A stretch of DNA of 64,000 bases from Actinocatenispora sera (GTDB taxonomy: Bacteria > Actinomycetota > Actinomycetes > Mycobacteriales > Micromonosporaceae). A model generated the notes under the pieces. That model was given only the letters and a program-made list of their open reading frames with translations. It did no database searches and was not told where the DNA came from. This document shows, piece after piece, positions 471-55,023 of this stretch (position 1 is the stretch's first letter; every line of letters begins with the position of its first letter). The stretch is taken from positions 2,790,001-2,854,000 of the forward strand of contig NZ_AP023354.1 in the NCBI RefSeq assembly GCF_018324685.1, in the 5' to 3' direction. Made by a program: the position numbers and the translations under genes.

Positions 471-486
471 TGGACTATAAAGTCCA
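471..486. promoter_or_regulatory. Palindromic TetR operator candidate, site 1
   Basis: TGGACTATAAAGTCCA has perfect 6-bp arms (TGGACT/AGTCCA) around a 4-bp AT-rich centre. It lies 40 bp after the TetR stop and upstream of the oxidoreductase start at 649. The same arms recur at 533 and at 54954 and 55008 beside the paralogous TetR gene, which is why it is read as the operator of these repressors. Binding itself is inferred. Confidence 0.75.
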
Positions 487-532
487 GTAGTATGAGTACA
501 CTGCCCAGCTGAAGAAGGAAAATCGACAGCAT

Positions 533-548
533 TGGACTTTAGGGTCCA
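533..548. promoter_or_regulatory. Palindromic TetR operator candidate, site 2
   Basis: TGGACTTTAGGGTCCA keeps the left arm TGGACT exactly and has one change in the right arm (GGTCCA). Its centre is 62 bp from that of the site at 471, close to six helical turns, which would place both on about the same DNA face. It sits about 100 bp before the start codon at 649. Confidence 0.65.
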
Positions 549-606
549 AGTTAGCGCAGGGGTGTGCGGGGCGCCGCGCTGCGGTGCCCCGAGGCAGAGG
601 CAAGCC

Positions 607-629
607 GGCCTCGCCACGCGGGCGAGGCC
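607..629 (+). promoter_or_regulatory. Leader hairpin before oxidoreductase
   Basis: A perfect 9-bp stem (GGCCTCGCC / GGCGAGGCC) with a 5-nt loop lies between the operators and the start codon at 649. It is not followed by a T run, so it may be a leader structure or a weak attenuator. Function is not shown. Confidence 0.4.
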
Positions 630-648
630 CTGGTACAGGGGGTGCCGG

Positions 649-1566
649 ATGAAGGCGATCGTGGTGACCGACGAGGCCGCGGGGACGGCCGGGATGACGC
701 TGACGGAGCGGCCCGAGCCGTCCCCGGCGATCAACGACGTGGTCGTGCAGGTGCACGCGTCGGGATTCGTCCCGACCGAGTTGGAGTGGCCGTCGACCTG
801 GGTCGATCGCGCCGGCCGTGACCGCACCCCGTCGGTACCCGGGCACGAGCTGGCCGGCGTGGTCACCTCCCTGGGGTACGGCACGACCGGGCTGTCGGTG
901 GGGCAGCGGGTGTTCGGCCTCGCGGACTGGCACCGCGACGGGACGCTGGCGCAGTACGTGGCGATGGAGTCGCGCAACCTCGCCGGGCTGCCGGGCGACG
1001 TCGACTTCACGGAAGCGGCGAGCCTGCCGATCTCGGGGCTGACCGCCTGGCAGGGACTGTTCGACCACGGCCGGCTGCGCGCCGGCCAGCGGGTCCTCGC
1101 GCACGGGGCGGCCGGGGCGGTCGGCACCATGGTGACCCAGCTGGCCCGCGAGTTCGGCGCGTACGTCATCGGTACCGGACGCGCCGCCGACCGGCAGAAG
1201 GTACTCGAGTTCGGCGCGCACGAGTTCGTCGATCTCGGCGGCGAGGGCCTGGACGAGGTCGGCGAGGTCGACCTGGTGTTCGACGTCATCGGCGGCGACG
1301 TCCAGAAGCGGTCCGCGCGGCTGATCGGGCCCGGCGGAACGCTGGTGTCGGTCGTCGGGCCGGTGGAGGCACGGCCGGCCAATGGCCTGGCCATCGACTT
1401 CGTGGTCGAGGCCGACCGCGCGCAACTTGGCGAGATCGTCCAGCGGGTGCGGGACGGGCGCCTGCGCACCAACATCGGCACCGTGACGACCCTCGACAAC
1501 GCCGTGTCCACGTTCAACTCGACCGATCGGCACAAGGGGAAGATGATCGTCGACATTCGTCCGTGA
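649..1566 (+). CDS. NADP-dependent zinc-type alcohol dehydrogenase family oxidoreductase (quinone reductase-like)
   Basis: This 305-residue cytoplasmic protein belongs to the medium-chain dehydrogenase family, quinone oxidoreductase branch. The N-terminal GroES-like part carries PGHELAGVV, and the Rossmann part carries AHGAAGAVGTMVTQLA, the cofactor-binding loop. The structural-zinc cysteine cluster of true alcohol dehydrogenases is absent, as in NADPH quinone/enone reductases. ATG at 649 is chosen because AGGGGG precedes it and the family start MKAIVV fits; a longer in-frame extension would overlap the operator. It follows the TetR gene and two TetR-type palindromes, so it is probably repressed and induced by an electrophile or drug. 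Substrate unknown. Confidence 0.85.
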   Translation: MKAIVVTDEAAGTAGMTLTERPEPSPAINDVVVQVHASGFVPTELEWPSTWVDRAGRDRTPSVPGHELAGVVTSLGYGTTGLSVGQRVFGLADWHRDGTLAQYVAMESRNLAGLPGDVDFTEAASLPISGLTAWQGLFDHGRLRAGQRVLAHGAAGAVGTMVTQLAREFGAYVIGTGRAADRQKVLEFGAHEFVDLGGEGLDEVGEVDLVFDVIGGDVQKRSARLIGPGGTLVSVVGPVEARPANGLAIDFVVEADRAQLGEIVQRVRDGRLRTNIGTVTTLDNAVSTFNSTDRHKGKMIVDIRP

Positions 1567-1590
1567 GACCGCCCGCCTCGGCGATCCCGG

Positions 1591-2877
1591 TCAGAGGTAA
1601 TAGCGGAGCAGCAGGTAGGCGGTGCTGAGGGCGATGGTGACCGCGGTGGTGATCAGGCCGTACTTGGTGAACTGCCAGAAGCTGATGGGGTGCCCGTTGC
1701 GCCGGGCGACCCCGAGCAGCACCACGTTGGCGCTGGCGCCGATCGCGGTGGCGTTGCCGCCGAGGTCGGCGCCGAGGGTCAGCGCCCACCACAGCGGTTG
1801 CGCCGCCGCCCCACCGGCGTCGACCAGGTCCTGGGTGAGGGGCGCGAGCGTGGCCACGTAAGGGATGTTGTCGATCACCCCGGACAGAACGGCGGAGCCG
1901 ATCAGCAGGCCGGCCGCGCCGGCCGCCCAGTGCCCGTCGATCGCGCCGGCCGCCGCGCCGCCGAGCGCCTTGATCACGCCGAGGTTCACCAGCGCGCCGA
2001 CCATGACGAACAGCCCGGCGAAGAACAGCAGGGTTTCCCACTCCACGTCGGCGAAGATCTTGGCCGGTTCCATCCGGGTAACCAGCACCAGCAGCCCGGC
2101 GCCGATCAGCGCGACCATGGCGGGCGACAGGCCGGTGACCCGGCTGGTGAGGAATCCGGCCAGGATCGCGGCAAGAACCGACAGGGAGATGACGAGCAAC
2201 CGCCGGTCGCGGATGGTTTCCCGCTGCCTCAGCGCCATCACCTGCGTGGCGCGCTGCGGGTCGTAGTGCAGCTGGCGGCGGAACATCAGCCAGGCCAGCC
2301 CGATCAGCGCCACCATCAGGATCGCGACGATCGGACCCAGCGCGACCAGGAAGTCGGTGAACCCGAGGTCGGCCCGGCTGCCCACGATCAGGTTCGGTGG
2401 GTCACCGATGAGCGTGGCGGTGCCGCCGATGTTGCTCGCCAGTACCTCGGTGATCAGGTACGGCACCGGGGTCACCGCCAACCGCTGGCACACCAGCAGC
2501 GTGACCGGTGCGATCAGCAGCACCGTGGTGACGTTGTCCAGGAAGGCCGAGGCGACGGCGGTGATGACCGCGAACATCGTCAGGATCGCGAACGGGCGGC
2601 CGCGGGCGAGCTTCGCCGACCAGACGGCGAGGTACTCGAACATGCCGGACTGCCGGGCGATACCGACGACCATCATCATGCCCAGCAACAGGAACAGCAC
2701 GTTCCAGTCGATGCCGGTGTCGGCGGAGAAGAACACGTCGTCGCCGCCGGTGGCGCCGATCAGCACCATCAGCGCGGCGCCGGTGAGGGTGACGGTGGCG
2801 CGAGGCACCTTCTCGGTGGCGATCAGCACGTAGGCGGCCGCGAACACCACGATGGCCGCGACGAGCTGCCAGCTCAC
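1591..2877 (-). CDS. ArsB/NhaD-type (SLC13/IT superfamily) membrane transporter
   Basis: This 428-residue integral membrane protein has about eleven hydrophobic segments and the ion-transporter family marks: a first half with LDNVTTVLLIAPV and IGGTATLIGDPPNLIVGS, and a second half with SGVIDNIPYVATLAP and LGGNATAIGASANVV, the two inverted-repeat hairpins that bind substrate and cation. Members move anions such as arsenite, or exchange Na+/H+; the exact substrate cannot be read. No arsenic genes are nearby. The GTG start overlaps the stop of the CBS gene by 4 bp (GTGA), so the two are translationally coupled. It converges on the oxidoreductase with only 24 bp between stops. Confidence 0.88.
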   Translation of the reverse strand: MSWQLVAAIVVFAAAYVLIATEKVPRATVTLTGAALMVLIGATGGDDVFFSADTGIDWNVLFLLLGMMMVVGIARQSGMFEYLAVWSAKLARGRPFAILTMFAVITAVASAFLDNVTTVLLIAPVTLLVCQRLAVTPVPYLITEVLASNIGGTATLIGDPPNLIVGSRADLGFTDFLVALGPIVAILMVALIGLAWLMFRRQLHYDPQRATQVMALRQRETIRDRRLLVISLSVLAAILAGFLTSRVTGLSPAMVALIGAGLLVLVTRMEPAKIFADVEWETLLFFAGLFVMVGALVNLGVIKALGGAAAGAIDGHWAAGAAGLLIGSAVLSGVIDNIPYVATLAPLTQDLVDAGGAAAQPLWWALTLGADLGGNATAIGASANVVLLGVARRNGHPISFWQFTKYGLITTAVTIALSTAYLLLRYYL

Positions 2878-3347
2878 GCCGGGCCCGCCCGGCCGTCACG
2901 GGCGGCGACCAGCGCGTCGAGCACCGCCGGCAGCAACACGAACCGCGGGGTTCCGTCGCCGCTCAGCCGTACCAGCTGCGCCTTGTTCGCCACCATGCGG
3001 CACGCGGTCTCCAGCACGGTCGCGTCCGGGTCGATCTCGACGACCCCGCGCACGCCCAGGTCGCCGGCGTCGATCGCGGCGCCGACGGTGCGGGCGTCGG
3101 CCTCGGCGAACAGCTCCTCGAGGCTGGAGTCGTCCAGCAGCCCGGCGAGCGACAGGTCCGCCAGGGCGTACCCGGGCAGTACCAGGCGGGTGAGGTCCAC
3201 CGGGGAGGCGATCGCCTCGACCCGTCCGTCCTCGCCGACGATCACCACGGCCAGCAGGTCGTGCTCGGCGATCAGCCGGAACGTGTCGGAGATGCTGCTG
3301 GAGCGCGGCAGCAGCGGCAGCTCGACGGCCAGCTCGACGGCGTGCAT
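2874..3347 (-). CDS. CBS domain protein, likely regulator of the adjacent transporter
   Basis: This 157-residue protein is almost wholly a pair of CBS motifs (about residues 10-60 and 90-150), a fold that binds adenine nucleotides. The first half has LIAEHDLLAVVIVGEDGRV, the second VLETACRMVANKAQLVRL, each ending in the usual strand-helix. ATG at 3347 is preferred over GTG at 3353 since AAGAAGG lies 5 nt before it. It is the first gene of a two-gene operon with the transporter. A regulatory role, sensing energy charge or ionic strength, is inferred from context, as stand-alone CBS proteins often gate transporters. Confidence 0.8.
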   Translation of the reverse strand: MHAVELAVELPLLPRSSSISDTFRLIAEHDLLAVVIVGEDGRVEAIASPVDLTRLVLPGYALADLSLAGLLDDSSLEELFAEADARTVGAAIDAGDLGVRGVVEIDPDATVLETACRMVANKAQLVRLSGDGTPRFVLLPAVLDALVAARDGRAGPA

Positions 3348-3580
3348 GGGCACCTTCTTCCGGGCAGCGGAACACCATCGCCGACCAGACTTCCCGGCAC
3401 ACCGAGCCTGACTCTAGCGAAGCCGCGGGACAGCTGCGCGGGCGTACCGGCGAAGCCTGGTCCCCGCGGCGGCCGGGCCGGTGGCCTCTTCGGCGGCCGA
3501 GCGGGGGCTTGGCCGCGCTCGAGCCACCCGCGGACGACGGGTTCCCCCACGGTGGGAGCTGGCCCGACCGAGCCCGGACG

Positions 3581-3594
3581 TACCCCCGGGGGTA
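3581..3594. promoter_or_regulatory. CsoR/CstR-type operator 1
   Basis: TACCCCCGGGGGTA is a perfect 14-bp palindrome, the GC-rich form typical of CsoR-family operators. It lies 34 bp before a second copy, both upstream of the 58-residue Cys protein. Confidence 0.82.
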
Positions 3595-3614
3595 TAAGCT
3601 GGGGTCGGCCACCA

Positions 3615-3630
3615 ATACCCCCGGGGGTAT
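3615..3630. promoter_or_regulatory. CsoR/CstR-type operator 2
   Basis: ATACCCCCGGGGGTAT is a perfect 16-bp palindrome, 38 bp before the ATG at 3668. Its centre is 35 bp from that of operator 1. Confidence 0.85.
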
Positions 3631-3667
3631 CGGTGACACGAGACCAACGAGCTGTGGAGGCAGTCTG

Positions 3668-3844
3668 ATGTGTCGAGCGGTGGAGTGTCGTCGGTGCGGC
3701 AAGACGACGTGGGCCGGCTGCGGTCAGCACGTCGACCAGGTGATGCGGACGGTGCCGCCGGACCAGTGGTGTGCCGGTCACGACGACGAAGCACCCGCAG
3801 CGCCCGCGCCGCGCCGGCTGTGGAACCGGCTGCGCCGCCGCTGA
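3668..3844 (+). CDS. Small cysteine-rich protein of the persulfide regulon
   Basis: This 58-residue protein begins MCRAVECRRCGKTTWAGCGQ and has five cysteines, including a CRRC pair and CGQH, then a Pro/Ala-rich basic tail. Such small proteins with a WAGCGQHVDQV segment are seen beside CsoR and rhodanese genes in actinobacteria; their function is not established as far as I know. A good ribosome site (GGAGG) precedes the ATG, and two perfect CsoR-type operators lie directly upstream, so it is the first member of this regulon. The thiols could carry sulfane sulfur or bind a metal; both are inference. Confidence 0.75.
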   Translation: MCRAVECRRCGKTTWAGCGQHVDQVMRTVPPDQWCAGHDDEAPAAPAPRRLWNRLRRR

Positions 3845-4289
<445 letters not shown>

Positions 4290-4328
4290 GAGAGCGATTT
4301 CCCCCGGTGTGGCCCTCGGCCCCACCCG

Positions 4329-4342
4329 TACCCCTGGGGGTG
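4329..4342. promoter_or_regulatory. CsoR/CstR-type operator 4 (imperfect)
   Basis: TACCCCTGGGGGTG keeps the arms of the perfect copies at 3581-3964 with two changes. It lies 17 bp before the start of the dioxygenase-rhodanese gene at 4360, which extends the regulon to this gene. Confidence 0.72.
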
Positions 4343-4359
4343 TGTGGAAGGAGTCGGAA

Positions 4360-5787
4360 ATGGTGCAGGAGACGCCCGTGGGCGAATCGGCCGGCGTCGC
4401 CGTCGAGGTGGTGGAGACCTCCTCGCTGGGCGACCGGAGCTACCTCGCGCACGACGGGCAGGTGGCGCTGGTGGTGGACCCCCAGCGCGACATCGACCGG
4501 CTCGTGGCGCTCGCCGGTCGGCTCGGCGTACGGATCACCCATGTCGCCGAGACCCACCTGCACAACGACTACGTGTCCGGCGGCCTGGCACTGGCCCACC
4601 TCACCGGCGCGGTCTACCTGGTGGCCGGCGCCGACGAGGTCGCCTTCGCCCGTACGCCGGTCGCCGACGGCGACGAGGTGACGCTCTCGCCACGGCTGCG
4701 GCTGTCCGTGGTCGCCACACCGGGGCACACCTTCCACCACGTGTCGTACGTCGTGTCCGGGCCGAGCGGCCCGCTCGGCGTGTTCACCGGCGGCTCGCTG
4801 CTGTTCGGTACCACCGGTCGCACTGACCTGCTCGGCGCCCAGCATGCCGAGGCGCTTGCCCGCCGGCAGTACGAGTCGGTGCGGCGGCTGGCCGATCTGC
4901 TGCCCGACGGCGCGCAGATCTGGCCCACGCACGGCTTCGGCAGCTTCTGCTCCGCCAGCCAGTCCGACGCCGCGGCCTCGACCATCGGCCGGGAACGCAC
5001 CGCCAACCCGGCGCTGCGGCTGCGCTCCGACGAGTTCGTCGTCACCACGCTGGCCGGGCTCGATGCCTTCCCCGCGTACTACGCGCACATGGGGGTGCGC
5101 AACGCCGCCGGCGCCGACCAGATCGATCTGACCCCGGTCCGTCGCGCCGATCCCGGCGAGTTGCGCCGCCGGATCGACGCCGGCGAGTGGATCGTCGACC
5201 TGCGCTCCCGGACGGCATTCATGCGCCGGCACCTGACCGGCACCCTCAGCTTCGGTCTCGACGGACCGATGTCGACCTGGCTGGGCTGGCTGCTGCCCGC
5301 AGGCCGACCGCTCACCCTGCTCGGGGAGTCGAGCGAGCAGGTGGCCGCCGCGCAACGCGAACTGGCCCGCATCGGCATCGACCGGCCGGCTGCCGCGGCC
5401 ACCGGTACGCCCGAGCAGTGGGCGGCCGGCGACGCCGGGCGGCTCGGCGCGCTGCCGGTCGCCACCTTCGCCGATCTCGCCGCCGCCCGCGCCGGCCGGG
5501 CGCCCGACGGGCTGCCGGCGGCCGATGTCGTCCTCGACGTACGGCTCGGCAACGAGTGGCGCTCCGAGCACATCGACGGCGCGGTTCACGTACCGTTGCC
5601 GGAGCTTGCGGATCGACTGGCGGAGTTGCCCTCCGGGGCGATCTGGGTGCACTGCGGTTCCGGATACCGCGCGGCCACCGCGGTGGGGCTACTCGCCCGG
5701 GCCGGCCGCCAGGTGGTGCACGTCGATGACGCCTACCCGCACGCCGCCGCTGCGAGTCTCGCCGTCGTGCCGCCGCGCGATACCTGA
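4360..5787 (+). CDS. Persulfide dioxygenase-rhodanese fusion (CstB-like)
   Basis: This 475-residue cytoplasmic enzyme joins a metallo-beta-lactamase domain (about 15-245) to two rhodanese-like domains. The first has THLHNDYVSGG (His66, His68), PGHT (His123) and GRTDLLG (Asp156), matching the mononuclear iron site of ETHE1-type persulfide dioxygenases; His191 follows in WPTHGFG. The middle rhodanese (about 265-350) lacks a catalytic cysteine; the last one has VHCGSGYRA with Cys432. This is the CstB layout, which oxidises persulfide to sulfite and can form thiosulfate. ATG at 4360 follows AAGGAG and the imperfect operator at 4329. It completes a three-gene sulfide/persulfide detoxification set. 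Confidence 0.9.
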   Translation: MVQETPVGESAGVAVEVVETSSLGDRSYLAHDGQVALVVDPQRDIDRLVALAGRLGVRITHVAETHLHNDYVSGGLALAHLTGAVYLVAGADEVAFARTPVADGDEVTLSPRLRLSVVATPGHTFHHVSYVVSGPSGPLGVFTGGSLLFGTTGRTDLLGAQHAEALARRQYESVRRLADLLPDGAQIWPTHGFGSFCSASQSDAAASTIGRERTANPALRLRSDEFVVTTLAGLDAFPAYYAHMGVRNAAGADQIDLTPVRRADPGELRRRIDAGEWIVDLRSRTAFMRRHLTGTLSFGLDGPMSTWLGWLLPAGRPLTLLGESSEQVAAAQRELARIGIDRPAAAATGTPEQWAAGDAGRLGALPVATFADLAAARAGRAPDGLPAADVVLDVRLGNEWRSEHIDGAVHVPLPELADRLAELPSGAIWVHCGSGYRAATAVGLLARAGRQVVHVDDAYPHAAAASLAVVPPRDT

Positions 5788-5990
5788 GCGCCGCGGCGCG
5801 CCTGACCACACCGGCCGGCACGGTGGGCATCCATGCGTGCTGCTGCGGTCGGATCGGCCGACACCGCAACCGACAACGCGACCTGGGCTGCCGGCGTGAC
5901 GGCCGGGAGCGGCGCGTGGCCGAGGCTTCGTCGCGAGTCGCCCGGTCGGTGTCGCCGGCGATAACCGTTGGGCGGCTTGGGCGACACGCT

Positions 5991-6161
5991 CTAGGGTCTG
6001 TTTCGGAGCCCCCGGCCGAGCGAGGCGAGTCCCGTTTGTCTGCTCGCAAGGCGGAGGGCAGTTCGTGTGCCGGGCTTGCCCACGGGCTGTCCGACAACGC
6101 CGCGAGCGGGCAAACGGGGCCGCCGCAGCCGGCACGCGGGACTTGCGAAACAGACCCTAGC
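5991..6161. mobile_element. MITE-like 171-bp element with 15-bp terminal inverted repeats
   Basis: The ends are CTAGGGTCTGTTTCG (5991-6005) and its exact complement (6147-6161). Inside, further imperfect pairing continues (for example CCCGTTTG...CTCGC near both ends), so the whole unit could fold into one long hairpin. No gene fits in it. Both ends include CTAG, which would equal a 4-bp target duplication. The right CTAG is also the left target copy of the neighbouring IS. Confidence 0.75.
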
Positions 6162-6212
6162 TTGAGTTTTAACCTTGGTGGGCGGTGTGGGGCACCCTGG
6201 TTGATCATGGAA

Positions 6213-6270
6213 GCAGCCCTTGGTTGATCATTCCTCTTGCGACAGTAGGAAGATCAACAGCAAGGGCTGC
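6213..6270 (+). promoter_or_regulatory. Inverted repeat in the transposase leader
   Basis: GCAGCCCTTG plus GTTGATC (6213-6229) pairs with GATCAAC (6252-6258) plus CAAGGGCTGC (6261-6270), just before the GTG start at 6272. Transcripts entering from outside would fold over the start region; several IS elements use such a structure to limit transposase made by read-through. That role is inferred here. Confidence 0.6.
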
Positions 6271-6271
6271 G

Positions 6272-7741
6272 GTGATCAGTGTGCCTCAACCATATCGTCG
6301 GGTCGTCGGCGGGCAGTTGAGCCGGTTCCGGCGGGACTTTTATGCGTGTTTGACGTCCCGGGCCGATGGCCTGTTCGAGGCGTGTGACGCCTTGTTGTGT
6401 GTCGATGGGCCGGTGCGGTCGTTGCCGGAGTTGTCGCTGGCCGGAGTCCACCGCCGTGGTCACGGTGGTCTGTATGGCGCGCTGGCGGCTGGCCGTATCG
6501 ACTCCGATCGGTTGCGGCAAGCGATGTTGGGGTGCACGTTGCCGCGGGCGGGTGATGGGCGGATCGTGCTGGCGGTGGACGTGACGTGTTGGTTGCGGCC
6601 CGAGGCACATACCAGTCCCGGCCGGATGATGTGTCATACCTACGGTCGTGGCAAGGATCAGCACATCGGGGTGCCGGGCTGGCCGTGGTCGGTGGTGGTG
6701 GCGTTGGAGACCGGACGGTCGTCATGGACCGCGCCGTTGGACGCGGTCCGGTTGGCTCCGGGTGAGGACGCGGCGGCCGTGACCGCTTACCAGCTACGGC
6801 GGGTCGTGACCGGCCTGATCGAGGCAGGGCATTGGGATGCCGGTGATCCGGAGATCCTGATCGTGGCCGACGCCGGCTACGACGGTCCCCGCCTGTCGTT
6901 CGTGCTGGCCGATCTGCCGGTGCGGGTGCTGGTGCGGATGCGTTCCGACCGGGTCCTACGCCGAGCGGCTCTGTCTGATCGTCGGCATACGGTGGGCCGG
7001 CCGTGCCGGCACGGCAGCGAGTTCGTGTTCGGCCAGACGGCAACCTGGGGCGAGCCCGATGTCCAGATCTCCACCGACACCAGGCATTACGGGCCGGCGC
7101 GTATCCGTGCTTGGGACCGTCTGCATCCGCGGTTGACGCACCGCACCGCCTGGGCCGCGCATACCGGCGATCTGCCGGTGCTGGAAGGCACCGTCATCCG
7201 CCTCGACGTCGAGAGGCTGCCCTCGGGCGCGATCCCGAAACCGGTGTGGCTGTGGCATTCGGCCACCGACCTGGACCCTGGGCAGGTCGACCTGGCATGG
7301 CAGGCGTTCCTGCGCCGCTTCGACATCGAGCACACCTTCCGCATGCTCAAACAGACCCTGGGCTGGACCTGCCCGAAACTACGCGACCCGGCCGCGGCCG
7401 AACGCTGGACATGGCTGGTGCTGGCCGCCTACACCCAACTACGCCTCGCACGAAACGTCGCGGCGGACCTGCGTCGGCCGTGGGAGAAACCCCTCCCGCC
7501 ACAGCGGGTGACCCCGGCACGCCTCCGGCGAGGGTTTCGATACCTGCACCCGCGGCTGCCTCCTCTAGCGGCTGCGCCGAAACTCTGCCGGCCCGGGCCA
7601 GGACGCCCAGCCGGGCACCCCAACCAACGGCCAGCCGCCCGCCATGACGTGCACACGGCGTCCAGACCGGACCGACCCAAACCGCATCGCCACAAACCTA
7701 AGAAGCCGTCGGCCACGCCACGACCCCGACGAACAGGTTAA
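6272..7741 (+). CDS. IS transposase, DDE type
   Basis: This 489-residue protein begins at GTG 6272 (ISVPQPYRRVVGGQL). It has the layout of RNase H-fold transposases: an early Asp in VLAVDVTCWLR (about residue 99), a second in LIVADAGYDGPR (about 204), and a Glu in RRFDIEHTFRMLKQ (about 355), which are the likely DDE catalytic residues. The C-terminus is very basic and proline-rich. The family is common in actinobacteria and I place it near IS701 from the 4-bp CTAG duplication. There is no good ribosome site, and the start region is covered by the leader hairpin. The gene looks intact. Confidence 0.88.
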   Translation: MISVPQPYRRVVGGQLSRFRRDFYACLTSRADGLFEACDALLCVDGPVRSLPELSLAGVHRRGHGGLYGALAAGRIDSDRLRQAMLGCTLPRAGDGRIVLAVDVTCWLRPEAHTSPGRMMCHTYGRGKDQHIGVPGWPWSVVVALETGRSSWTAPLDAVRLAPGEDAAAVTAYQLRRVVTGLIEAGHWDAGDPEILIVADAGYDGPRLSFVLADLPVRVLVRMRSDRVLRRAALSDRRHTVGRPCRHGSEFVFGQTATWGEPDVQISTDTRHYGPARIRAWDRLHPRLTHRTAWAAHTGDLPVLEGTVIRLDVERLPSGAIPKPVWLWHSATDLDPGQVDLAWQAFLRRFDIEHTFRMLKQTLGWTCPKLRDPAAAERWTWLVLAAYTQLRLARNVAADLRRPWEKPLPPQRVTPARLRRGFRYLHPRLPPLAAAPKLCRPGPGRPAGHPNQRPAARHDVHTASRPDRPKPHRHKPKKPSATPRPRRTG

Positions 7742-7758
7742 AACTCAAGCTAGCATCG

Positions 7759-8592: not shown

Positions 8593-8639
8593 CAGCCTCG
8601 CGTACGGATCGCCGCTGCTTCACCAGGAGCTCATTGGTT

Positions 8640-9425: not shown

Positions 9426-9472
9426 GGCACCAGGTTGCCGTGCGGGTCGGGCTCCGGACAACTACCTCGCAG

Positions 9473-10547: not shown

Positions 10548-11374
10548 ACGACACGGCGACCCCCACGACGACGGCGCCCGCGGGCGTGGGTGTGCGGACG
10601 TTTCCGGCCCGGCGGGGCGCGCTGCTGTTCCACAGCCTGGCGCTCGCGCGACGCAATCTTGCCAAGGTCAGGCGAAACCCCGTCAGCATCGGGGATGCGG
10701 TCCTCGCGCCGGTGCTCTTCCTGGTGGTGTTCGTCTACCTGTTCGGCGGCGCCGTCGGTGGCTCCACGCACGCGTACCTGCAGCGCACGCTGCCGGCGAT
10801 CCTCGTACTGGCGGCGATCATGGCGGGGATGATCGCCACCGGCGTCAACCTGTCCATCGACATCAAGAAGGGGATCTTCGATCGCTTCCGGAGCCTGCCC
10901 ATCGGTCGGTCGGCGCCGCTGATCGGCTCCGTGCTGGCGGATGTCGTGCGCTACCTGGTGACTGTCGCGACGGTGTTCGTGGTGGGGTTCCTGATGGGCT
11001 TCCGGGTCCAGACCAGCCCGCTGGCGGCGCTGGCGGCGGCCGGTGTCACCATCGCGTTCGGCATGGCGCTCAGCTGGGTGTGGGTGCTGCTGGCGATGGT
11101 CATCAGGGAGACGACGCTGGTGCAGACGATCGTGTCGCTGAGCATCTTCCCCCTCGCCTTCGGCACCGACATGGTGGCACCCGTCGACACCCTGCCCGGC
11201 TGGCTCCAGGCCTGGGCACGGATCAACCCGATCGAACACACCATGGCGGCCTCCCGCGGCCTGCTCATCGGTGGTGACACCGCCGTACCGGCCGTCGAAT
11301 CGCTGCTGTGGTCGATCGGCCTCGTCGCCGTGTTCGCCCCGCTGGCGGTCGTCGCCTACCGCCGTCGCACCTGA
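10544..11374 (+). CDS. ABC-2 type permease, DrrB type
   Basis: This 276-residue membrane protein has six predicted transmembrane segments and the ABC-2 core: the cytosolic helix GIFDRFRSLPIGRSAPLIGSV, which contacts the ATPase, and the late FPLAFGTDMVAP...WARINPIEH segment typical of daunorubicin-resistance permeases. It starts inside the ATPase stop codon, so the two subunits are made together. With the ATPase it forms the exporter in the cell membrane. Confidence 0.92.
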   Translation: MNDTATPTTTAPAGVGVRTFPARRGALLFHSLALARRNLAKVRRNPVSIGDAVLAPVLFLVVFVYLFGGAVGGSTHAYLQRTLPAILVLAAIMAGMIATGVNLSIDIKKGIFDRFRSLPIGRSAPLIGSVLADVVRYLVTVATVFVVGFLMGFRVQTSPLAALAAAGVTIAFGMALSWVWVLLAMVIRETTLVQTIVSLSIFPLAFGTDMVAPVDTLPGWLQAWARINPIEHTMAASRGLLIGGDTAVPAVESLLWSIGLVAVFAPLAVVAYRRRT

Positions 11375-45750: not shown

Positions 45751-45773
45751 CCGGTCGGTTGGCGCGACCCGCG

Positions 45774-45947: not shown

Positions 45948-46301
45948 GAGAAACCCCCCACATGGTCTCGTGTCCTCGGGCGCTGTGGCCCCACCAATCA
46001 GGTTCCCCGTGCGCGGCTCGCCAAACCCGGCACCGCACGCGGGAACGGAGCACCGTTGATCTGGCCCGGGCCGGTCGCGAGGTGACAGGGGCGAAACATC
46101 CGGACGGCGCCAGCCTGCTGGCTGCTCAGGGACTCGGATCAGCCCACGGACTTCCACCCGGTCCGACTCCTCTCGATCACGACCGGAAAGAAAGGGGCGT
46201 GGCTGGTCTCGCCAGTCGCGGGGGCAAAGCGTCATGCTTCTAAGGTCCGGTCGAGGGTGGCTCAACGTGAGCTCGACACCGAACCCCGCCAGGAGGCGAC
46301 C
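45948..46301. other. 354-bp divergent spacer
   Basis: It lies between CsbD (minus) and the membrane protein at 46302 (plus). Apart from a short C run before CsbD, no gene, repeat or clear palindrome was recognised. Confidence 0.4.
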
Positions 46302-47330: not shown

Positions 47331-47340
47331 TGCGATGCCG

Positions 47341-48378: not shown

Positions 48379-49289
48379 GCCGGTACCTCCCGGCTCTCGG
48401 TGGCACCCGACGGCCCGGGAAGTGCCGTGGCGTCTGGATGCCGCAGGTAGGCCAGCACCAGCTCCTCCACGCCGACCGGCTCGGCGCGGAATCCCGCTTC
48501 GGCCGCCGGCCGTGGGTCGCCGCCGCAGCGGGCCAGCAGCCGAGTCTGCTGATCCGCGCGCTGGGCGGAGATGATCGGCAGCTCGGCGGGTAGCAGGTCG
48601 ACGTGGTCGGTGGGGCCGACGAGCATCCGGTGCCCGGCCACCAGGGTGTCGGTCTCCCCGGCTACCTGCACATGCCCCTCGGAGAGCACGACCAGGTAGT
48701 CGGCCACCCGGTCCAGCTCGGCGAGCACGTGCGAGGAGAACACCACGGAGATGCCGTCGGTGGCCACCGCCTCCAGTACCGCGGCCAGGAACTCGTGGCG
48801 GGCCAACGGATCCAGCCGGGCCAGCGGTTCGTCGAGGATCAACAGCTCGGGCCGGCGGGCGAGCGCCACGGTGACCGCGATCTGCGCCTGCTTGCCGCTG
48901 GACAGGGCGCCGAGCTTTGCCGAAGGGGGTATCGCCAGCTCCGCGACGCGCCGCCGCGCCCACTGGTGGTCCCAGCGATGGTTGAGGTGGGCCGCCAGTC
49001 GCAGCGTGTCGGCCACCGACAGCTGCCGGTACAACGGTGCGTCCTGGGCGACGAACGCCACCCGGGACAGGGCCGGGATCGACCCCGGCGCGACTCCACC
49101 CAGTACCGACAATCGGCCGGCGCTTGGCACCCGCAGGCCCACCACCAGCTCCAGCAACGTGGTCTTGCCGGATCCGTTGGGGCCGACCAGAGCCACCACG
49201 TGACCGGCCGGGATGGCCAGCGTGCAGTCGCGCAGGGCCCAGATCCGGCGGTACCGCCGGCCCAGGCCGGCACACTCGATGATGTTCAT
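48375..49289 (-). CDS. ABC transporter ATP-binding protein, YtrB-like
   Basis: This 304-residue ATPase has Walker A VGPNGSGKTTLLEL, a signature region LSSGKQAQIAVTVALAR (SSGKQ in place of SGGQ), Walker B LLILDEPLARLDP and switch FSSHVLAELDRVADYLVV. The signature variant is found in some GntR-linked transporters. ATG at 49289 overlaps the GntR stop by 4 bp. It energises the permease encoded next. Confidence 0.88.
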   Translation of the reverse strand: MNIIECAGLGRRYRRIWALRDCTLAIPAGHVVALVGPNGSGKTTLLELVVGLRVPSAGRLSVLGGVAPGSIPALSRVAFVAQDAPLYRQLSVADTLRLAAHLNHRWDHQWARRRVAELAIPPSAKLGALSSGKQAQIAVTVALARRPELLILDEPLARLDPLARHEFLAAVLEAVATDGISVVFSSHVLAELDRVADYLVVLSEGHVQVAGETDTLVAGHRMLVGPTDHVDLLPAELPIISAQRADQQTRLLARCGGDPRPAAEAGFRAEPVGVEELVLAYLRHPDATALPGPSGATESREVPA

Positions 49290-49774
49290 GCCACCACGCC
49301 GCCCCGCCCCCGACGCCGCGGACGAGCAGCCGTCGGTTGGGCGTAGAACTCCCGTGTCGCGGTGGCGAACAGCGCGTTCGTGGTCTGCTCGTCCAGGCCG
49401 ACGGACTGCGTCGAACGCAGCCACGCCACCAGTTGCTGCCGGAGCCGGTCGAGTTCGGCCAGGCCGACCGCGCCGGGCGTGCCGTCCACGAACGTACCCA
49501 GCCCCGGCCGTCCGGACGCGATCCCCAGATGCTCCAACTCCTTGTACGCCTTGAGCACCGTGTTCGGGTTGATCGCCAGGTCGGCCACCACGTCCTTGAC
49601 CCGTGGAAGCTGATCGCCCCGCCGCAGATAGCCCAGCCGCAGCGCCTGCTGCACCTGCTGCACCACCTGCAGATACGGAGGGACGCCGCTGGCCGGGTCG
49701 AGGCGGAACCGGATCGCCGCCCGGCTCGCCTCGGCGCCGTGCTCCGGATCACCGCGATCTTTATCTATTCCCAT
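49286..49774 (-). CDS. GntR family regulator, YtrA type
   Basis: This 162-residue regulator has a GntR winged helix (VPPYLQVVQQVQQALRLGYLRRGDQLPRVKDVVADLAINPNTVLKAYKELEHLGI) and only a short C-terminal helix part, as in the YtrA subfamily, with GTFVDG after the wing. It is first in the operon with the ABC genes and thus likely represses it. Just upstream, the AT-rich stretch ACTATATAACC runs almost into the ATG at 49774, so the transcript is short-leadered or leaderless and a repressor site probably overlaps it. Confidence 0.87.
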   Translation of the reverse strand: MGIDKDRGDPEHGAEASRAAIRFRLDPASGVPPYLQVVQQVQQALRLGYLRRGDQLPRVKDVVADLAINPNTVLKAYKELEHLGIASGRPGLGTFVDGTPGAVGLAELDRLRQQLVAWLRSTQSVGLDEQTTNALFATATREFYAQPTAARPRRRGRGGVVA

Positions 49775-49835
49775 GGTTATATAGTACTGCCCGGCTGGGC
49801 CCCGCTTCCAGACGACCGAGAAGATTGGGGCAACC

Positions 49836-51422
49836 TTGCCCACTCCGTTGAGGCGCCACATCCACCGCGACCGTCGATTACCCTCGTTCGGCCCGCCGCT
49901 TCCCCGCCCGCCGTGGCGACGAGTACCGGCCGGCACGCCGGACATCGGCGAGGCCGCAGCCGGATACCCGCGGCAGCACGCCAACCCCGACCGGGCGGGC
50001 CGCGCGTCTCGACCGGTCCGGTGGCTCGTCGCAGTGCCGGCATCGGCTCTGTCGCTGACGGTGAGCTGTCTGTCCATCGGACGGCCCGCGCTGTCGACCG
50101 ACGAACTCGCGACCTGGAGCGCCGTCTCGCGCACCCTGCCCCAACTGGTGCACCTACTGACCCACGTGGATGCGGTCCTCGGCCTCTACTACCTCGCCCT
50201 GCACGCCTGGTGCCAGCTGTTCGGCTACAGCGAAGTGGCGCTGCGAACGCCCAGCGCGCTCGCGGTCGCCGCCACGGCCGGCACGACGACGATGCTCGGC
50301 GCGAGACTGGCCGACACTCGCACCGGCGTACTGGCCGGGCTGCTGCTGGCCGTGCTGCCCGCGGCCACGCAGGTCGCCCAGACCGCGCGTGTCTACGGAG
50401 TCGTCATGTTGCTGGGCTGCGTCTCGCTGCACCTGCTGCTGTGCGTCACCGGGCCCCGGCGCGCCCGACGAACGACACGGCTGGCGTACGCCCTGTCGGT
50501 GATACTGCTCGGCTGCCTGCATCTGGTCGCCTGCGCCGCGATCCTGCCAGTACACCTCTACCTGCTCATCCGGCACGCCCGCCGGTTGCGCTCCAGCATC
50601 CTTCGAACGGCGGGCCCACTGGCCGTCGCGATCCTCGCGCTGATGCCGCTGGTCCACGTCGGTTATCTCCAGCGCCATCAGCTCGACTGGGTCGACACCA
50701 TCGGCTTCACCGGCTTCGTCGACACCGCCAGCCGGGAACTCGTCGGCTCGCCGAGCCTGGTCCTGCTGCTGGGGGTACTGGTCGGCTGCGGCGTCGCCGT
50801 CGCGGGCCGGTCCCGCCGAGTGCTTGCGGTGTGGGCGCTGGCCCCGATCACCCTGCTGCTGGCCACGGCAATCTGGGTTCCCCGGTACGCGGTGCTGGTG
50901 GTGCCCGCCTGGACGATCCTGGCCGGCCGGTGCGCAGCGGAGCTGCTGCGCGCACCGATCCCGTTGGCCGTGCTGTTGGCGTCGGTGACCGTGGCGGGCA
51001 TACCCCGAGACGAGTCGATCCGACGCCCCGACGGCCACGGGTTCGACACGCGGGCTGCCGCCGTGCTGATCGCCGACCACTGGCGGCCCGGCGACGGGCT
51101 GATCTACCGGGCCGACAGCTGGACCACGCCGCTGATGATGTGCTACTACCAACCAGGCCGTGCCTTCAGTACGCCGCTGGCATACGCGGACGCCGCACGG
51201 GTGGGGTGGTACACCGGTACGCCACGCCCGCCCACCTACCGGAACCTCGGCGGCGCCACCCGGCTGTGGTACGTGCGGCGAGGAGACCATGCGGCGCACC
51301 CGTTCGACGCCACCGGCGACTCCGTCGCACCCGCTACCGAACTCGCCCGCCACTACCGGGTCGAACGCAGTTGGCTGCTTCCGCAGACGCTGACCGTCCT
51401 GCTACTGACGCCAAAGCCCTGA
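49836..51422 (+). CDS. GT39/PMT-like polytopic glycosyltransferase
   Basis: This protein of about 528 residues (start not certain; TTG at 49836 used) has about eleven membrane segments and the GT-C layout: the first outside loop with LSTDELATWSAV, where Asp-Glu would be the metal/catalytic pair, followed by VLGLYYLALHAWCQLFGYSEVALRTPSAL, as in Dol-P-mannose-type transferases. A C-terminal outside domain of about 130 residues follows (HWRPGDGLIYRADSWTTPLMMCYY). It would move a sugar from a polyprenyl phosphate onto a protein or wall polymer. It is divergent from the GntR operon. Confidence 0.83.
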   Translation: MPTPLRRHIHRDRRLPSFGPPLPRPPWRRVPAGTPDIGEAAAGYPRQHANPDRAGRASRPVRWLVAVPASALSLTVSCLSIGRPALSTDELATWSAVSRTLPQLVHLLTHVDAVLGLYYLALHAWCQLFGYSEVALRTPSALAVAATAGTTTMLGARLADTRTGVLAGLLLAVLPAATQVAQTARVYGVVMLLGCVSLHLLLCVTGPRRARRTTRLAYALSVILLGCLHLVACAAILPVHLYLLIRHARRLRSSILRTAGPLAVAILALMPLVHVGYLQRHQLDWVDTIGFTGFVDTASRELVGSPSLVLLLGVLVGCGVAVAGRSRRVLAVWALAPITLLLATAIWVPRYAVLVVPAWTILAGRCAAELLRAPIPLAVLLASVTVAGIPRDESIRRPDGHGFDTRAAAVLIADHWRPGDGLIYRADSWTTPLMMCYYQPGRAFSTPLAYADAARVGWYTGTPRPPTYRNLGGATRLWYVRRGDHAAHPFDATGDSVAPATELARHYRVERSWLLPQTLTVLLLTPKP

Positions 51423-52015
51423 GCGGTCCGGCACCTGTCTCCTCGCGAGGAGGGCGCCGCGTCGGTCCGGTCCGTGATGGTCGTGGCGCCTACGGCGGCC
51501 GGATCAGTCAACGGGAGACGGTGGCCGGCACGGGGACAGGGCCATGGCAAGCATGATGAGCAGCGCGGGCCCGCCGAAACGGCTCGGTGCGGCCACTGCA
51601 CGCTCGACCGTGCCGACCGACGGCGCCGGTGAAACGGCAACACCAGCATCATGCGGTCGGTCACGGCCGGCCGCTGTTCTATGTCGGTTTATCGACGCGA
51701 GAGCGACTCGGTATCGGTCCGGGACGTTTGAGGACACTCTGGCCGGTTGCTGTGCTGGCCAGGGAAGGATTCTCCGAGGCGAAGTGCCGTCCTCGACGAC
51801 TACTCAGCCGGGCCAACTGTCCTCACGGCACCGCGCGCCGGGACATGTGGATGATCGCCTTACGGCCGCGGGTACTCGGACCGCTTTCACTGAACGAACG
51901 CTCGTGATTACTGACCGCTAATCCGATGGTAGCGGCGGGTCCGCAGCTCGCATGATGGCGTCGCTGCCATTCGCGTCCCGCGTCTGGCTGCACGCTCTAC
52001 TCGCCAGCACAGTAG
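51423..52015. other. 593-bp region without recognised gene
   Basis: A perfect 14-bp palindrome CTCCTCGCGAGGAG (51439-51452) soon after the GT39 stop may end its transcript. The rest has lower GC than its neighbours and open frames with no recognisable protein. Nothing else was seen. Confidence 0.5.
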
Positions 52016-53266
52016 GTGAGTGCCGTGACGGTTCCCATAGGCCCGCAGTTGCCGCCGCCCAGGCGACATCCGACCCTGCGTCGAATCCTGATCACCACGG
52101 GATCGGTGCTGGGCGGTCTGTTCGTCGTGTTCTGCACGCTGGGCATCCTGGGGGCCACCGGTGTTCTGCCCGCACCCGACCCGAGCAGCAGCCCCACGCC
52201 GGCCAACACCCGTGCGGTGGGCCACGCGCCGGAGCCCACGGAGGCGCCCAGCCACGATCCGACGACGTCGCCGGCGAGTCCCCGGCACCACCCGACCACC
52301 CCGGCGGCTCCCCGTCCGACGACCAGTGCGCCGCCCACGGCAGCGCCCGGCACGACGGCTCCCGGTACCGCACCACCGGCCGCGGCGCCGCCGGGGAAGC
52401 CGGCGAGCGGTACGTCGGCCTCCGCCGCGCTCGCCGCGCTCGCGAAGCTGCCGGTCGAGCCCGCCGCATCGATGGCGGGCTACAGCCGGGACATGTTCGG
52501 GCACGGCTGGATCGACACCGACCACAACGGCTGCGACACCCGCAACGACATCCTGCGCCGCGACCTGGCCAACCTCGTCGTGCGGGCCGGTACGCACGGC
52601 TGCGTCGTGATGTCCGGCGCGCTTCGCGACCAGTACACCGGCACCGTCATCAGCTTTCACCGCGGCGAAGGCACGTCCGACGCGGTCGAGATCGACCACG
52701 TGGTCGCGCTCGCGGACGCGTGGCGTACCGGCGCGCAAGGCATGTCGCCGAGCCAGCGGGAGCAGTTGGCCAACGATCCGATCGAACTGCTCGCGGTCAG
52801 CGGGTCGGCGAACGAGTCCAAGGGCGACCAGGACGCCTCGCAGTGGCTGCCGCCCCACCGCTCGTTCGACTGCGCGTACGTCGCGGACCAGATCACCGTC
52901 AAGGCCCGCTACGGCCTCTGGGTGACCCGCGCCGAACACGACGCGATGGCCTCCACGCTGCGCCAGTGCGGCGGTGTCGGGTCCCAGCCCCGTACCACCG
53001 CGGCCGCGCCGCCGTCACCGCGCCCCGCCAGGACCCAGGCGCCGCCCGCGACCCACGCGCCGCCCGCGACCCACGCGCCGCCCGCGACCCACGCACCGCC
53101 TACGACACAGGCGCCACCGCCGGCCGATGACGGCGGCGGGCAGACGGTCGTGCACCCCGGCGCGTTCTGCTCCCCGAAAGGAGCCGTCGGTGTCACCGAC
53201 CGCGGCACCCCGATGCGCTGCACCAGCAAGAACGGCGACCAACCCCGCTGGCGCTCCGCCAGTTGA
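52016..53266 (+). CDS. Membrane-anchored or secreted HNH-type nuclease (DUF1524/GmrSD C-like)
   Basis: This 416-residue protein has one membrane segment (about 23-47), a long Pro/Thr/Ala linker (52-140), a nuclease domain (about 145-325) and a second Pro-rich linker with four THAPPA-type repeats before a small Cys pair domain (AFCSPKG ... MRCTSKNGDQPRW). The nuclease domain shows EIDHVVALADAW and NDPIELLAVSGSANESKGDQDASQWLPP, the His-Asn-His-type beta-beta-alpha metal site of DUF1524. It should act outside the cell on DNA. GTG at 52016 or 52025 is the start; neither has a good ribosome site. Confidence 0.85.
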   Translation: MSAVTVPIGPQLPPPRRHPTLRRILITTGSVLGGLFVVFCTLGILGATGVLPAPDPSSSPTPANTRAVGHAPEPTEAPSHDPTTSPASPRHHPTTPAAPRPTTSAPPTAAPGTTAPGTAPPAAAPPGKPASGTSASAALAALAKLPVEPAASMAGYSRDMFGHGWIDTDHNGCDTRNDILRRDLANLVVRAGTHGCVVMSGALRDQYTGTVISFHRGEGTSDAVEIDHVVALADAWRTGAQGMSPSQREQLANDPIELLAVSGSANESKGDQDASQWLPPHRSFDCAYVADQITVKARYGLWVTRAEHDAMASTLRQCGGVGSQPRTTAAAPPSPRPARTQAPPATHAPPATHAPPATHAPPTTQAPPPADDGGGQTVVHPGAFCSPKGAVGVTDRGTPMRCTSKNGDQPRWRSAS

Positions 53267-53563
53267 AACAGCACCGATGTGAACGGCAGGTGCGGACACG
53301 GGCCGAACTCGTCGAGGCGTGGTGGGGTCCCTGCGCCCGCGCGACGAGCGCGTCCGTGCCAGCCACACGACCGACGCTGTCCGTTCGCAGTGAGCGCGAG
53401 AGGAGTACCGGCGTGAACGTCGCAACTCAGAAGTTCATGTTCTACAGCCAATGGGCACACAACCCAGGCTCGGTGATCGCGAAACCGCCGATGCCCACCT
53501 ACGAAGAGCTGCTCTCAGGCTGCGACCGAGCGCCGCGCGCAGCCTGGTCGGTAACATGGACCG
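53267..53563. other. 297-bp spacer before the TetR gene
   Basis: It separates the nuclease gene from the TetR gene at 53564. A short frame with AGGAG and GTG (near 53413) exists but encodes nothing recognisable. No TGGACT-type operator was seen here, unlike the spacer at 54872-55149. Confidence 0.4.
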
Positions 53564-54193
53564 ATGACGACGACCGCTGACCCCCAGGATGGTCGGCGCC
53601 TGACTGTGCGCGGTGCGAGGACTCGGGCAAGGATCGTCGCCGCGGCAGCCGACCTGATGTACGGCCAGGGGGTCGGGGGCACCACGCTCGACGACGTTCT
53701 TGCGGCCAGTGGAGTCAGCAAGTCGCAGTTGTACCACCACTTCGAGGGCAAGGACGCGCTCGTGCGTGCCGTGGTCGACCTCGTCGGTGAGCGCGTCATC
53801 GAGCGTGAACGCGCCGCACTTGGCCATCTCTCGACGCTTCGGGGCCTGCGCCGGTGGCGGGATGCGCTGGTGCAGAACAACGCTCTGCGGCATGGAGCCT
53901 ACGGTTGCGCGCTGGGGGCGCTGGCTACTGAGGTCTCCGATCATGATGATCTCGCCCGCAAGGCCCTGTCCGACTTGTTCAGCGAGTGGCAGACACTCCT
54001 GGCCGGCGTGTTGCGCCGGCTTCAGGACGGCGGTGAGCTCCCGGCCGAGGCGTCGGTCGAGCGGCTTGCGACCGGACTGATGGGTGCTCTCCAGGGCGGG
54101 TACCTGTTGGCACAGACAGCGCATGATGTGACGCCGATGGCGACATCGATCGATATGGCACTTGCGCACATCGAAAGCCTGTCTGGCCCCTGA
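53564..54193 (+). CDS. TetR family transcriptional regulator, paralogue of the gene at 2-430
   Basis: This 209-residue repressor has the TetR helix-turn-helix (about 20-65: TRARIVAAAADLMYGQGVGGTTLDDVLAASGVSKSQLYHHFEGKDALVRAVV) and a C-terminal domain about 80% identical over 139 residues to the regulator cut off at the left window edge. No strong ribosome site is seen before the ATG. It converges on the ECF sigma gene, in whose promoter region the two TGGACT-N4-AGTCCA-type palindromes lie, so it may repress that sigma factor. Its own promoter shows no such site. Confidence 0.9.
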   Translation: MTTTADPQDGRRLTVRGARTRARIVAAAADLMYGQGVGGTTLDDVLAASGVSKSQLYHHFEGKDALVRAVVDLVGERVIERERAALGHLSTLRGLRRWRDALVQNNALRHGAYGCALGALATEVSDHDDLARKALSDLFSEWQTLLAGVLRRLQDGGELPAEASVERLATGLMGALQGGYLLAQTAHDVTPMATSIDMALAHIESLSGP

Positions 54194-54232
54194 TCGACCG
54201 CCAGCCGCGAAACACCAAGCATCCGGCGTCGG

Positions 54233-54871
54233 TCAAGCAGATCGAGCCTCGGACGGCCTGGTGAGATGACCGCTGGCGACCAGCGCCGCACGAAGCTTCT
54301 GCCGGGCGTCGAAGAGCACCTTGTAGAGCGCGTTGTGCGTCGAGCCCAACTCGTCGGCGAGGACGTCCATCGGCATGCCGTTGACGACCGTGGCAACGAA
54401 AACGACACGCTGACGTTCGGACAGGCTCTCCTCGACCGCTGCGGAGACTGCGGCAGCGAACTCCCTGGCTTGCGCCTGGTCGTCCGGGCCGGCCGCGAAC
54501 CGTGAGGCGAGCGCTGACCAGTCCTCCTGCTCGTAGGGGACCTCGTGGCGACGCCAGAAGTGACGGTTCATCTTGGTCGCCACATTGAAGATGACGAACT
54601 TGCTTGCCCAGGTGGTGAACTTGGCCTCGCCCCGGAACCTGTCCAGGCGCTCGCTGATGGCCATCATCGCGTCGGCAGCCGCCTGGTGCGCGATGTCCTC
54701 CAGCTCGGGACCGTCGAGTGCCAACGTCGGGGCACGCCTGCGCGCCTCCGACTTCGCGACCCGGAGCAACAACGGATACAACTCCCGACACGCGGCTTCT
54801 CGGGCCGGGCCGACACGTGCAAGATCACGTACCCACCGACGGCTCTCTTGATCGATCTCCGGGTAGTTCAC
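54233..54871 (-). CDS. ECF-type sigma-70 factor
   Basis: This 212-residue sigma factor has region 2 (DIAHQAAADAMMAISERLDRFRGEAKFTTWASKFVIFNVATKMNRHFWRR) and region 4 (LSERQRVVFVATVVNGMPMDVLADELGSTHNALYKVLFDARQKLRAAL), separated by a short linker, the minimal ECF layout. ATG at 54871 lies 83 bp after the nearer palindrome. A zinc anti-sigma-like gene is upstream on the same strand, the reverse of the usual order. Its regulon is unknown. Confidence 0.9.
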   Translation of the reverse strand: MNYPEIDQESRRWVRDLARVGPAREAACRELYPLLLRVAKSEARRRAPTLALDGPELEDIAHQAAADAMMAISERLDRFRGEAKFTTWASKFVIFNVATKMNRHFWRRHEVPYEQEDWSALASRFAAGPDDQAQAREFAAAVSAAVEESLSERQRVVFVATVVNGMPMDVLADELGSTHNALYKVLFDARQKLRAALVASGHLTRPSEARSA

Positions 54872-54953
54872 TGCCGCCTCTTTCGCCAGGCATCACAATC
54901 TGTGAACGCGCTGGTCAGGTGGTCCCCCGACGCTCAGCGCACCCACCGTAGAC

Positions 54954-54969
54954 TGGACTATATAGTCCA
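54954..54969. promoter_or_regulatory. Palindromic TetR operator candidate, site 3
   Basis: TGGACTATATAGTCCA is a perfect 16-bp palindrome, the same 6-bp arms as at 471. It lies 85 bp before the ECF sigma start. Confidence 0.78.
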
Positions 54970-55007
54970 TGCAAGCGAGTGTAAGACGGAGAGTTGGACC
55001 TTCGGAT

Positions 55008-55023
55008 TGGACTGTAGAGACCA
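55008..55023. promoter_or_regulatory. Palindromic TetR operator candidate, site 4
   Basis: TGGACTGTAGAGACCA keeps the left arm and has one change in the right. Its centre is 54 bp from site 3. A half-like TGGACC lies between them near 54995. Confidence 0.65.

Follow-up and report, generated by a model that had tools for sequence, protein, structure and literature searches.

A TGGACT palindrome paired ahead of an alcohol dehydrogenase gene and an ECF sigma factor gene in Actinocatenispora sera: putative operators of a regulon proposed to be shared by two TetR paralogues

Circuits of the type considered here are already known, and the closest described kind is the LmrA/QdoR (YxaF) dual-repressor regulon of Bacillus subtilis. 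There, two repressors act over one regulon (by the title of Hirooka 2007, as given in the reference list of PMC8481877), and the accessible portion of PMC8481877 describes two operators for QdoR at the promoter of its target, qdoI, as well as repression by QdoR of its own gene. NemR of Escherichia coli is a TetR repressor of electrophile and chlorine stress that controls reductase and detoxification genes; Lys175 is the partner of its Cys106, and the targets named in the accessible portion of that source are gloA and nemA, with no sigma factor among them (PMC7464077). Here, we describe a 64,000-bp stretch of the soil actinobacterium Actinocatenispora sera (positions 2790001-2854000 of a single 7,044,238-bp contig; hereafter the window, to which coordinates refer unless stated otherwise) in which two paralogous TetR genes each lie near a pair of TGGACT-N4-AGTCCA palindromes, one pair being ahead of an alcohol dehydrogenase gene and the other ahead of a gene for an extracytoplasmic function (ECF) sigma factor. 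We read the four palindromes as operators of one TetR group that includes both paralogues, TetR1 and TetR2, which would jointly hold a split regulon, and we put the probability of this reading, together with the mechanism proposed below, at roughly 0.78. The ECF sigma gene as a target is the less usual part, and it is narrow in distribution. In a literature search of titles and abstract openings, with subscription papers outside its scope, this operator, this target set and this actinobacterial TetR group were not found among the matches listed, nor was any paper containing both arms together with 'TetR family' and 'inverted repeat'.

At the first locus, TetR1 (3' part at 2-430, + strand; the full gene, at genome positions of about 2789801-2790430, starts before the window) stands directly upstream of its pair of sites. 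The first, ADH-O1 (471-486), is a perfect TGGACT-ATAA-AGTCCA located 41 bp past the TetR1 stop codon, and the second, ADH-O2 (533-548), follows 62 bp later with one arm mismatch; both precede the predicted target, a zinc-type MDR alcohol dehydrogenase or quinone-reductase-like enzyme (ADH; 649-1566, + strand; PF08240 and PF00107), the start of which is backed by the matching N-terminus of its orthologues. The same order is found in Actinocatenispora comari (L061), with a perfect site at the equivalent place and the same arm position changed in its partner. At the second locus, about 0.76 kb from TetR2 (53564-54193, + strand), ECF-O1 (54954-54969), a perfect TGGACT-ATAT-AGTCCA, and ECF-O2 (55008-55023), with one arm mismatch and 54 bp away, lie upstream of the second predicted target, the ECF-type sigma factor gene (54233-54871, - strand). 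Its product passes the TIGR02937 sigma70-ECF profile at 66 bits (cut-off 42.9) and falls below the cut-off of the region-4 profile PF08281 (21.7 against 25.7 bits). A sequence-only reading of the window had placed these two pairs, each made of one perfect and one single-mismatch site, ahead of an oxidoreductase and an ECF sigma factor and near a TetR gene, and every element of that description was recovered, with the oxidoreductase now assigned to the zinc-type MDR dehydrogenases. The window as a whole contains seven matches with at most two mismatches compared with 1.04 expected, a number reached in 0 of 100 shuffles; the two-mismatch places are at 10995, 37950, and 58282.

Random scatter of the palindrome was looked for across the 7.04-Mb genome, which holds just two exact copies of TGGACT-N4-AGTCCA, at 471 and 54954 of the window, that is, at these two loci. 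Nine places match with no more than one mismatch. Six of them group into three pairs of <100 bp, where random placement would give 0.001 such pairs, and each of these pairs is no further than 0.8 kb from a TetR gene ranking in the top five of the 57 TetR-like matches in the genome. The third pair (genome 3792049 and 3792136, 87 bp apart) stands between a divergent TetR gene, 30% identical to TetR2, and a gene read from its sequence as a short-chain dehydrogenase/reductase (SDR). The unpaired one-mismatch places are at genome positions 1396636 (outside called open reading frames [ORFs], in a repeat cluster), 3148025 (at the junction of two transport-type genes), and 6997345 (inside a called ORF), and the two-mismatch places of this genome were covered as far as about 3.06 Mb. 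A stricter search for two tandem sites found just the ADH and sigma loci; its control also gave two.

Conservation of the palindrome was followed in relatives of the two loci. The search yielded 42 loci, of which 39 holding this TetR in other Actinomycetota (L060-L098; best-segment identity of 62-86%) were kept and three weak Collinsella matches (L099-L101) dropped from all counts, with genes in the relatives called by a simple caller based on third-position GC content (GC3). An exact site is present in 15 of the 39; allowing one mismatch raises the number to 30, and allowing two, to 36. The specific arm matters, as does the gap: the exact TGGACT arm with a gap of 4 occurs in 15 loci, compared with at most one locus for each of the remaining 179 arms of the same composition, and a gap of 4 is the only one found with this arm among gaps of 0-12. 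Neither an exact copy nor a pair turned up for any of six control palindromes. High locus counts were also seen for three other palindromes, which were rejected as candidates, being almost wholly inside the TetR coding region; outside that region, this palindrome is the commonest of five tested (17 copies, the next having 11). The 39 loci and the two window regions together hold 66 places that deviate from the palindrome at one position at most; 56 of these are outside called ORFs, counting as outside those within 30 bp of a called start, although ORFs cover 76% of the sequence (binomial 4e-25; the relatives are not independent samples, and p-values here are guides only). The spacing recurs as well, a feature that the sequence-only reading had not extended to relatives. 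Pairs within 200 bp number 29, of which 16 are spaced by 53-65 bp (14 at 62-65 and two at 53), and 15 of the 39 loci have a pair at 53-65 bp. Among 28 loci (L032-L059) with TetRs from the window's family that are less similar, 24 hold a site deviating at no more than one position. As a separate observation, a related palindrome, TGGACG-N4-CGTCCA, precedes ADH genes in three loci (L067 2771, L082 788, and L083 2188) and could serve as the operator of a further TetR of the same type.

The presence of the site can also be compared with that of the TetR and of the enzyme. Within the genus, the A. sera genome and one other (G001) each have two such TetRs and two exact sites, and two further members (G002 and G003) have neither. 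In 12 relatives, there is one close TetR per genome (72-85% identical, all other matches being at most 64%), save that G308 also has an incomplete second copy (83% over 99 residues), and 8 of their 16 exact sites are within 11 kb of the close TetR compared with 0.04 expected, the 11-kb limit having been picked after the places were seen. Of 11 ADH genes located no more than 1.5 kb from this TetR, 9 have a site in the 400 bp upstream when up to two mismatches are allowed, and 7 when up to one is allowed. By contrast, ADH orthologues drawn class-wide regardless of TetR (61-82% identical; a match in 44 of 394 genomes, 29 opened) have the operator in their 400 bp upstream in 0 of 29 cases (Fisher p = 2e-7 for 9/11 versus 0/29), and the idea of the site belonging to the enzyme family as such was dropped for this reason. 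A less similar TetR match is found near three of these orthologues (L125, L128, and L120), and about 1.1 kb upstream of the one in L125 there is a site with a single mismatch. Taken as sequence comparisons, these data support the view that the site accompanies this TetR across genera, and not the target enzyme alone. They also bear on whether a third regulator, such as TetR3 at genome position 3792163 or another related TetR, owns the sites while TetR1 and TetR2 are bystanders. TetR3 has its own one-mismatch pair of the form TGGACC-N4-AGTCCA, so related TetRs may read similar DNA, and there are 57 TetR-like matches in the genome to choose from; nonetheless, the joint presence or absence of exact sites and TetR1/TetR2 orthologues in the four genus members, their clustering in relatives, and the lack of a site at TetR-independent ADH orthologues make ownership by a third regulator quite improbable. 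A family sample gave a background of a different kind, with at least one exact site in 201 of 300 genomes; among the places listed, these are mostly one recurring sequence, TGGACTTCTGAGTCCA or its complement. In a single opened instance (G057 contig 1, about 901392; L107 993-1008), TGGACTTCTGAGTCCA overlaps the 3' end of a gene read as groEL, and on that basis these background sites were set aside as a coding coincidence.

The two TetR proteins are closely alike. The earlier estimate of about 80% identity over 139 residues was close to the measured value, 116 of 140 residues (83%) for the part of TetR1 visible in the window and 84% over residues 3-208. TetR2 passes the PF00440 (TetR_N helix-turn-helix) profile at 48.7 bits against a cut-off of 24, and the C-terminal domains PF16925 and PF21993 (cut-offs of 27) score 52.1 and 48.6 bits in TetR2 and 43.9 and 41.1 bits in the TetR1 part. 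By these profile cut-offs, both are classified as TetR family proteins of the LmrA/YxaF-like or TetR_C_13 type, and the match to PF21993, a domain named after LmrA and YxaF, is the likeness they share with the B. subtilis pair. The B. subtilis repressors reportedly also have the efflux genes lmrAB as targets, and their operator sequence is one that we take to be different from TGGACT-N4-AGTCCA. Their targets differ as well: the flavonoid dioxygenase gene qdoI, as described in the accessible portion of PMC8481877, contrasts with the MDR dehydrogenase and ECF sigma genes here. The best NCBIfam matches of TetR2, AcuR (NF051457; 58.4 against 247 bits) and ScbR (71.7 against 150 bits), are far below their curated cut-offs. 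A stretch of 39 residues covering the expected recognition helix is identical between TetR1 and TetR2, and because the expected DNA-reading region is the same, both paralogues would be expected to bind all four sites; this is the main reason for proposing cross-binding. Cys115 is invariant in 40 of 40 aligned TetRs (the incomplete copy L097 being left out of both this alignment and the tree) and is the sole cysteine in 39. It aligns with Cys106 of NemR, although both TetR1 and TetR2 have Gln where NemR has Lys175, and identity in the alignment is 25%.

In the tree, the four Actinocatenispora TetRs, two from A. sera and two from A. comari, form one clade (97/97; bootstrap not fully settled), inside which the ADH-side and sigma-side copies are not cleanly separated (89/31). 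Given this single clade, the duplication looks confined to the genus. In Planotetraspora thailandica (L064), the genome's only close TetR gene occurs in one 8.6-kb stretch together with ADH, GNAT, and ECF sigma genes, the last being 84% identical to that of the window, and site pairs with spacings of 63 and 53 bp are found ahead of the GNAT gene and the sigma gene, respectively. Actinocatenispora has these parts divided between two loci, each with a TetR copy, and A. comari has both (L061 and L070). The ECF sigma gene is found near this TetR in A. comari, in P. thailandica, and in a Nocardioides locus (L091), where it is 80% identical and is truncated by the end of the locus. In some relatives, among them P. 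thailandica, the TetR operon has its own site, unlike the TetR genes of the window. In 10 of the 39 loci (L063, L064, L066, L069, L073, L074, L080, L081, L088, and L095), a further conserved protein that resembles a TetR over its C-terminal half only, no DNA-binding part being seen, is encoded directly upstream of the TetR gene, overlapping it or almost touching it (e.g., L064 3504-4004, + strand). Its L073 copy scores 23.8 bits with PF21993, below the cut-off of 27, and in 10 of 10 loci the 150 bp ahead of it contain a site with two mismatches or fewer; a structure model from the 10 sequences reached a mean pLDDT of 47, too poor for use. This TetR-like protein lacking the helix-turn-helix could serve the repressor as a partner or decoy subunit.

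A number of observations weigh against a regulon shared in this way. The bare count of places with at most one mismatch in the A. sera genome is not special, being nine compared with 21 for a reversed-pattern control, and among the related loci, 9 of 39 lack a site even when one mismatch is allowed, and three (L060, L068, and L090) lack one when two are allowed. The less similar TetRs (L032-L059) show pair spacings spread over 60-170 bp without a peak at 53-65 bp. Two of the 11 TetR-near ADH genes have no site, one of them in the key relative P. thailandica, where neither of two ADH genes, the second located further off, has a site in the 400 bp upstream. A match to the ECF sigma factor at E <= 1e-70 occurs in 1 of 394 genomes of the class, the window's own, and a search of 126 neighborhood upstream regions found no shared bipartite promoter for it, the top words reflecting G+C-rich background. 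No site with at most two mismatches was found in the 1.5 kb upstream of TetR1 (L010) or TetR2 (L011), a difference from QdoR, which represses its own gene according to the accessible portion of PMC8481877. Finally, 36 of 209 residues are not shared between TetR1 and TetR2, and 26 of these are beyond residue 70, so the two may answer different signals. This last point, together with the fact that each TetR adjoins its own target, would fit insulated paralogues, with each TetR acting at its own locus only and the site being common by descent. We consider such insulation unlikely, as the recognition region is identical over 39 residues, both perfect sites have equal arms, and P. thailandica has site pairs ahead of two operons with one close TetR; with equal DNA specificity in one cell, cross-binding would be hard to avoid. 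The shared regulon put forward in the sequence-only reading remains the best account, supported by the tracking of the site with the TetR, the 39-residue identity, the single clade, and the P. thailandica arrangement.

The sites can also be placed relative to putative promoters. Ahead of the sigma gene, in both the window and A. comari (L070), the perfect operator lies between TTGCAT and TACGGT with an 18-bp spacer, and in P. thailandica, TTGTAT and TACGGT flank a one-mismatch site. A promoter scan of the sigma gene proposes instead CTTACA-17-TATAGT, with the -10 element inside the operator; in either promoter reading, the operator overlaps the predicted promoter core. The weaker partner is 53-54 bp upstream and has the same T-for-A arm change in all three loci covered by this comparison (window, L070, and L064). 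At the ADH gene, the promoter scan found no sigma-70-type promoter. The DNA helix makes one turn per 10.5 bp, and spacings of 53-54 and 62-65 bp approximate five and six turns, so two dimers would sit on one face of the DNA and might cooperate. The 471 site, as a good inverted repeat 41 bp after the TetR1 stop codon, could also be taken for a hairpin or terminator, or the palindromes for products of chance; yet no terminator-like feature was found at either operator region, and with arms, gap, and spacing recurring in relatives, we give such explanations next to no credence.

For the shared regulon, we propose that a strong, perfect operator at each target promoter is accompanied by a weaker one at a distance of roughly five or six turns of the helix, with one TetR dimer probably on each site. 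The perfect site, which overlaps the predicted promoter in the case of the sigma gene, would block RNA polymerase, and the weaker partner would strengthen repression through cooperative binding or by occupying a flanking promoter element. TetR1 and TetR2, as probable within-genus duplicates keeping one DNA-reading surface, would jointly repress the ADH gene at one locus and the ECF sigma gene at the other, and we infer cross-talk between the loci on these grounds. An inducer, most likely an electrophile or oxidant, would act on the C-terminal domain, perhaps via the invariant Cys115, and release both TetRs, upon which the enzyme would detoxify and the sigma factor would widen the response.

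The stress character and the breadth of the regulon, like the recurrence of the pair spacing, go beyond the sequence-only reading. Genes right behind sites in the relatives, or in an apparent operon with such genes, include those for GNATs, a CMD/AhpD-type protein with a nitroreductase (L063), and a molybdopterin oxidoreductase with an FNR reductase (L066 and L087), with the GNAT, CMD, nitroreductase, PF00174, and FNR assignments made by Pfam; major facilitator superfamily (MFS) and ferritin-like genes, named from their sequences, are also found behind sites. In an Actinoplanes locus (L104), nine places with at most one mismatch occur on one TetR-bearing 19-kb stretch. By names read from sequence, these precede an OsmC-like gene (2794), a ferritin-like gene (5514), an unnamed ORF (6070 and 6155), an FAD-oxidoreductase gene (8066 and 8152), an ADH-GNAT unit (10360), an FNR reductase gene (12110), and a thioredoxin gene (13291). 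Genes read as MsrA and MsrB recur nearby in relatives, and no well-placed site was seen directly ahead of them in those loci. The identity of these neighboring genes suggests oxidant or electrophile defense, and direct thiol sensing through Cys115 is possible.

Several members of these neighborhoods are also encoded in the window near the sigma gene. Upstream of that gene is one for a small Cys-containing protein (55150-55470, - strand), which on the basis of its conserved Cys residues and adjacency is a possible zinc-binding anti-sigma factor; it has no Pfam or NCBIfam match, and its relative in L062 has none in Pfam. Also in this region are a GNAT gene (PF14542; 55978-56388, - strand), a recurrent member of the neighborhood that by motif scan has no site of its own here, and a gene for a molybdopterin-binding oxidoreductase (57831-58436, - strand; PF00174, 120.9 bits), a recurrent neighbor in relatives with no convincing site here. 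The FNR-type reductase gene placed after it (about 57115-57840, start uncertain) is likewise recurrent in relatives and is named from its ORF translation, the FNR domains having been scanned on the relative in L066. Two further TetR genes, both 38% identical to TetR2 and within about 8 kb of it, are at 58757-59503 (- strand) and 61597-62256 (+ strand), the latter directly ahead of an SDR-like gene; no strong TGGACT-type palindrome was seen in the checked regions ahead of either. On the other side of the window, an ArsB/CitMHS-type transporter gene (1591-2877, - strand) adjoins the ADH gene and has a 95% counterpart in A. comari (L061), with no site of its own seen.

A wider possibility, which we offer tentatively and regard as rather doubtful at present, is that these parts make up an actinobacterial stress circuit of an undescribed kind. 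In it, an oxidant or electrophile would be sensed directly by a TetR with a single cysteine, which through helically phased operator pairs would release detoxifying enzymes together with an ECF sigma factor, so that a one-component sensor in the cytoplasm would replace, or add to, an anti-sigma factor as the gate of the ECF cascade. Duplication of the sensor in Actinocatenispora would have given one regulon two sensors. Whatever the outcome for that circuit, a recurring operator and target set are now on hand for an apparently uncharacterized TetR group found in many actinobacterial genera, together with a specific example of an ECF sigma gene predicted to be under a TetR repressor. The strong and weak operators set five or six turns apart make cooperative repression testable, and the duplicated sensor over one regulon provides a small natural experiment in paralogue cross-talk.

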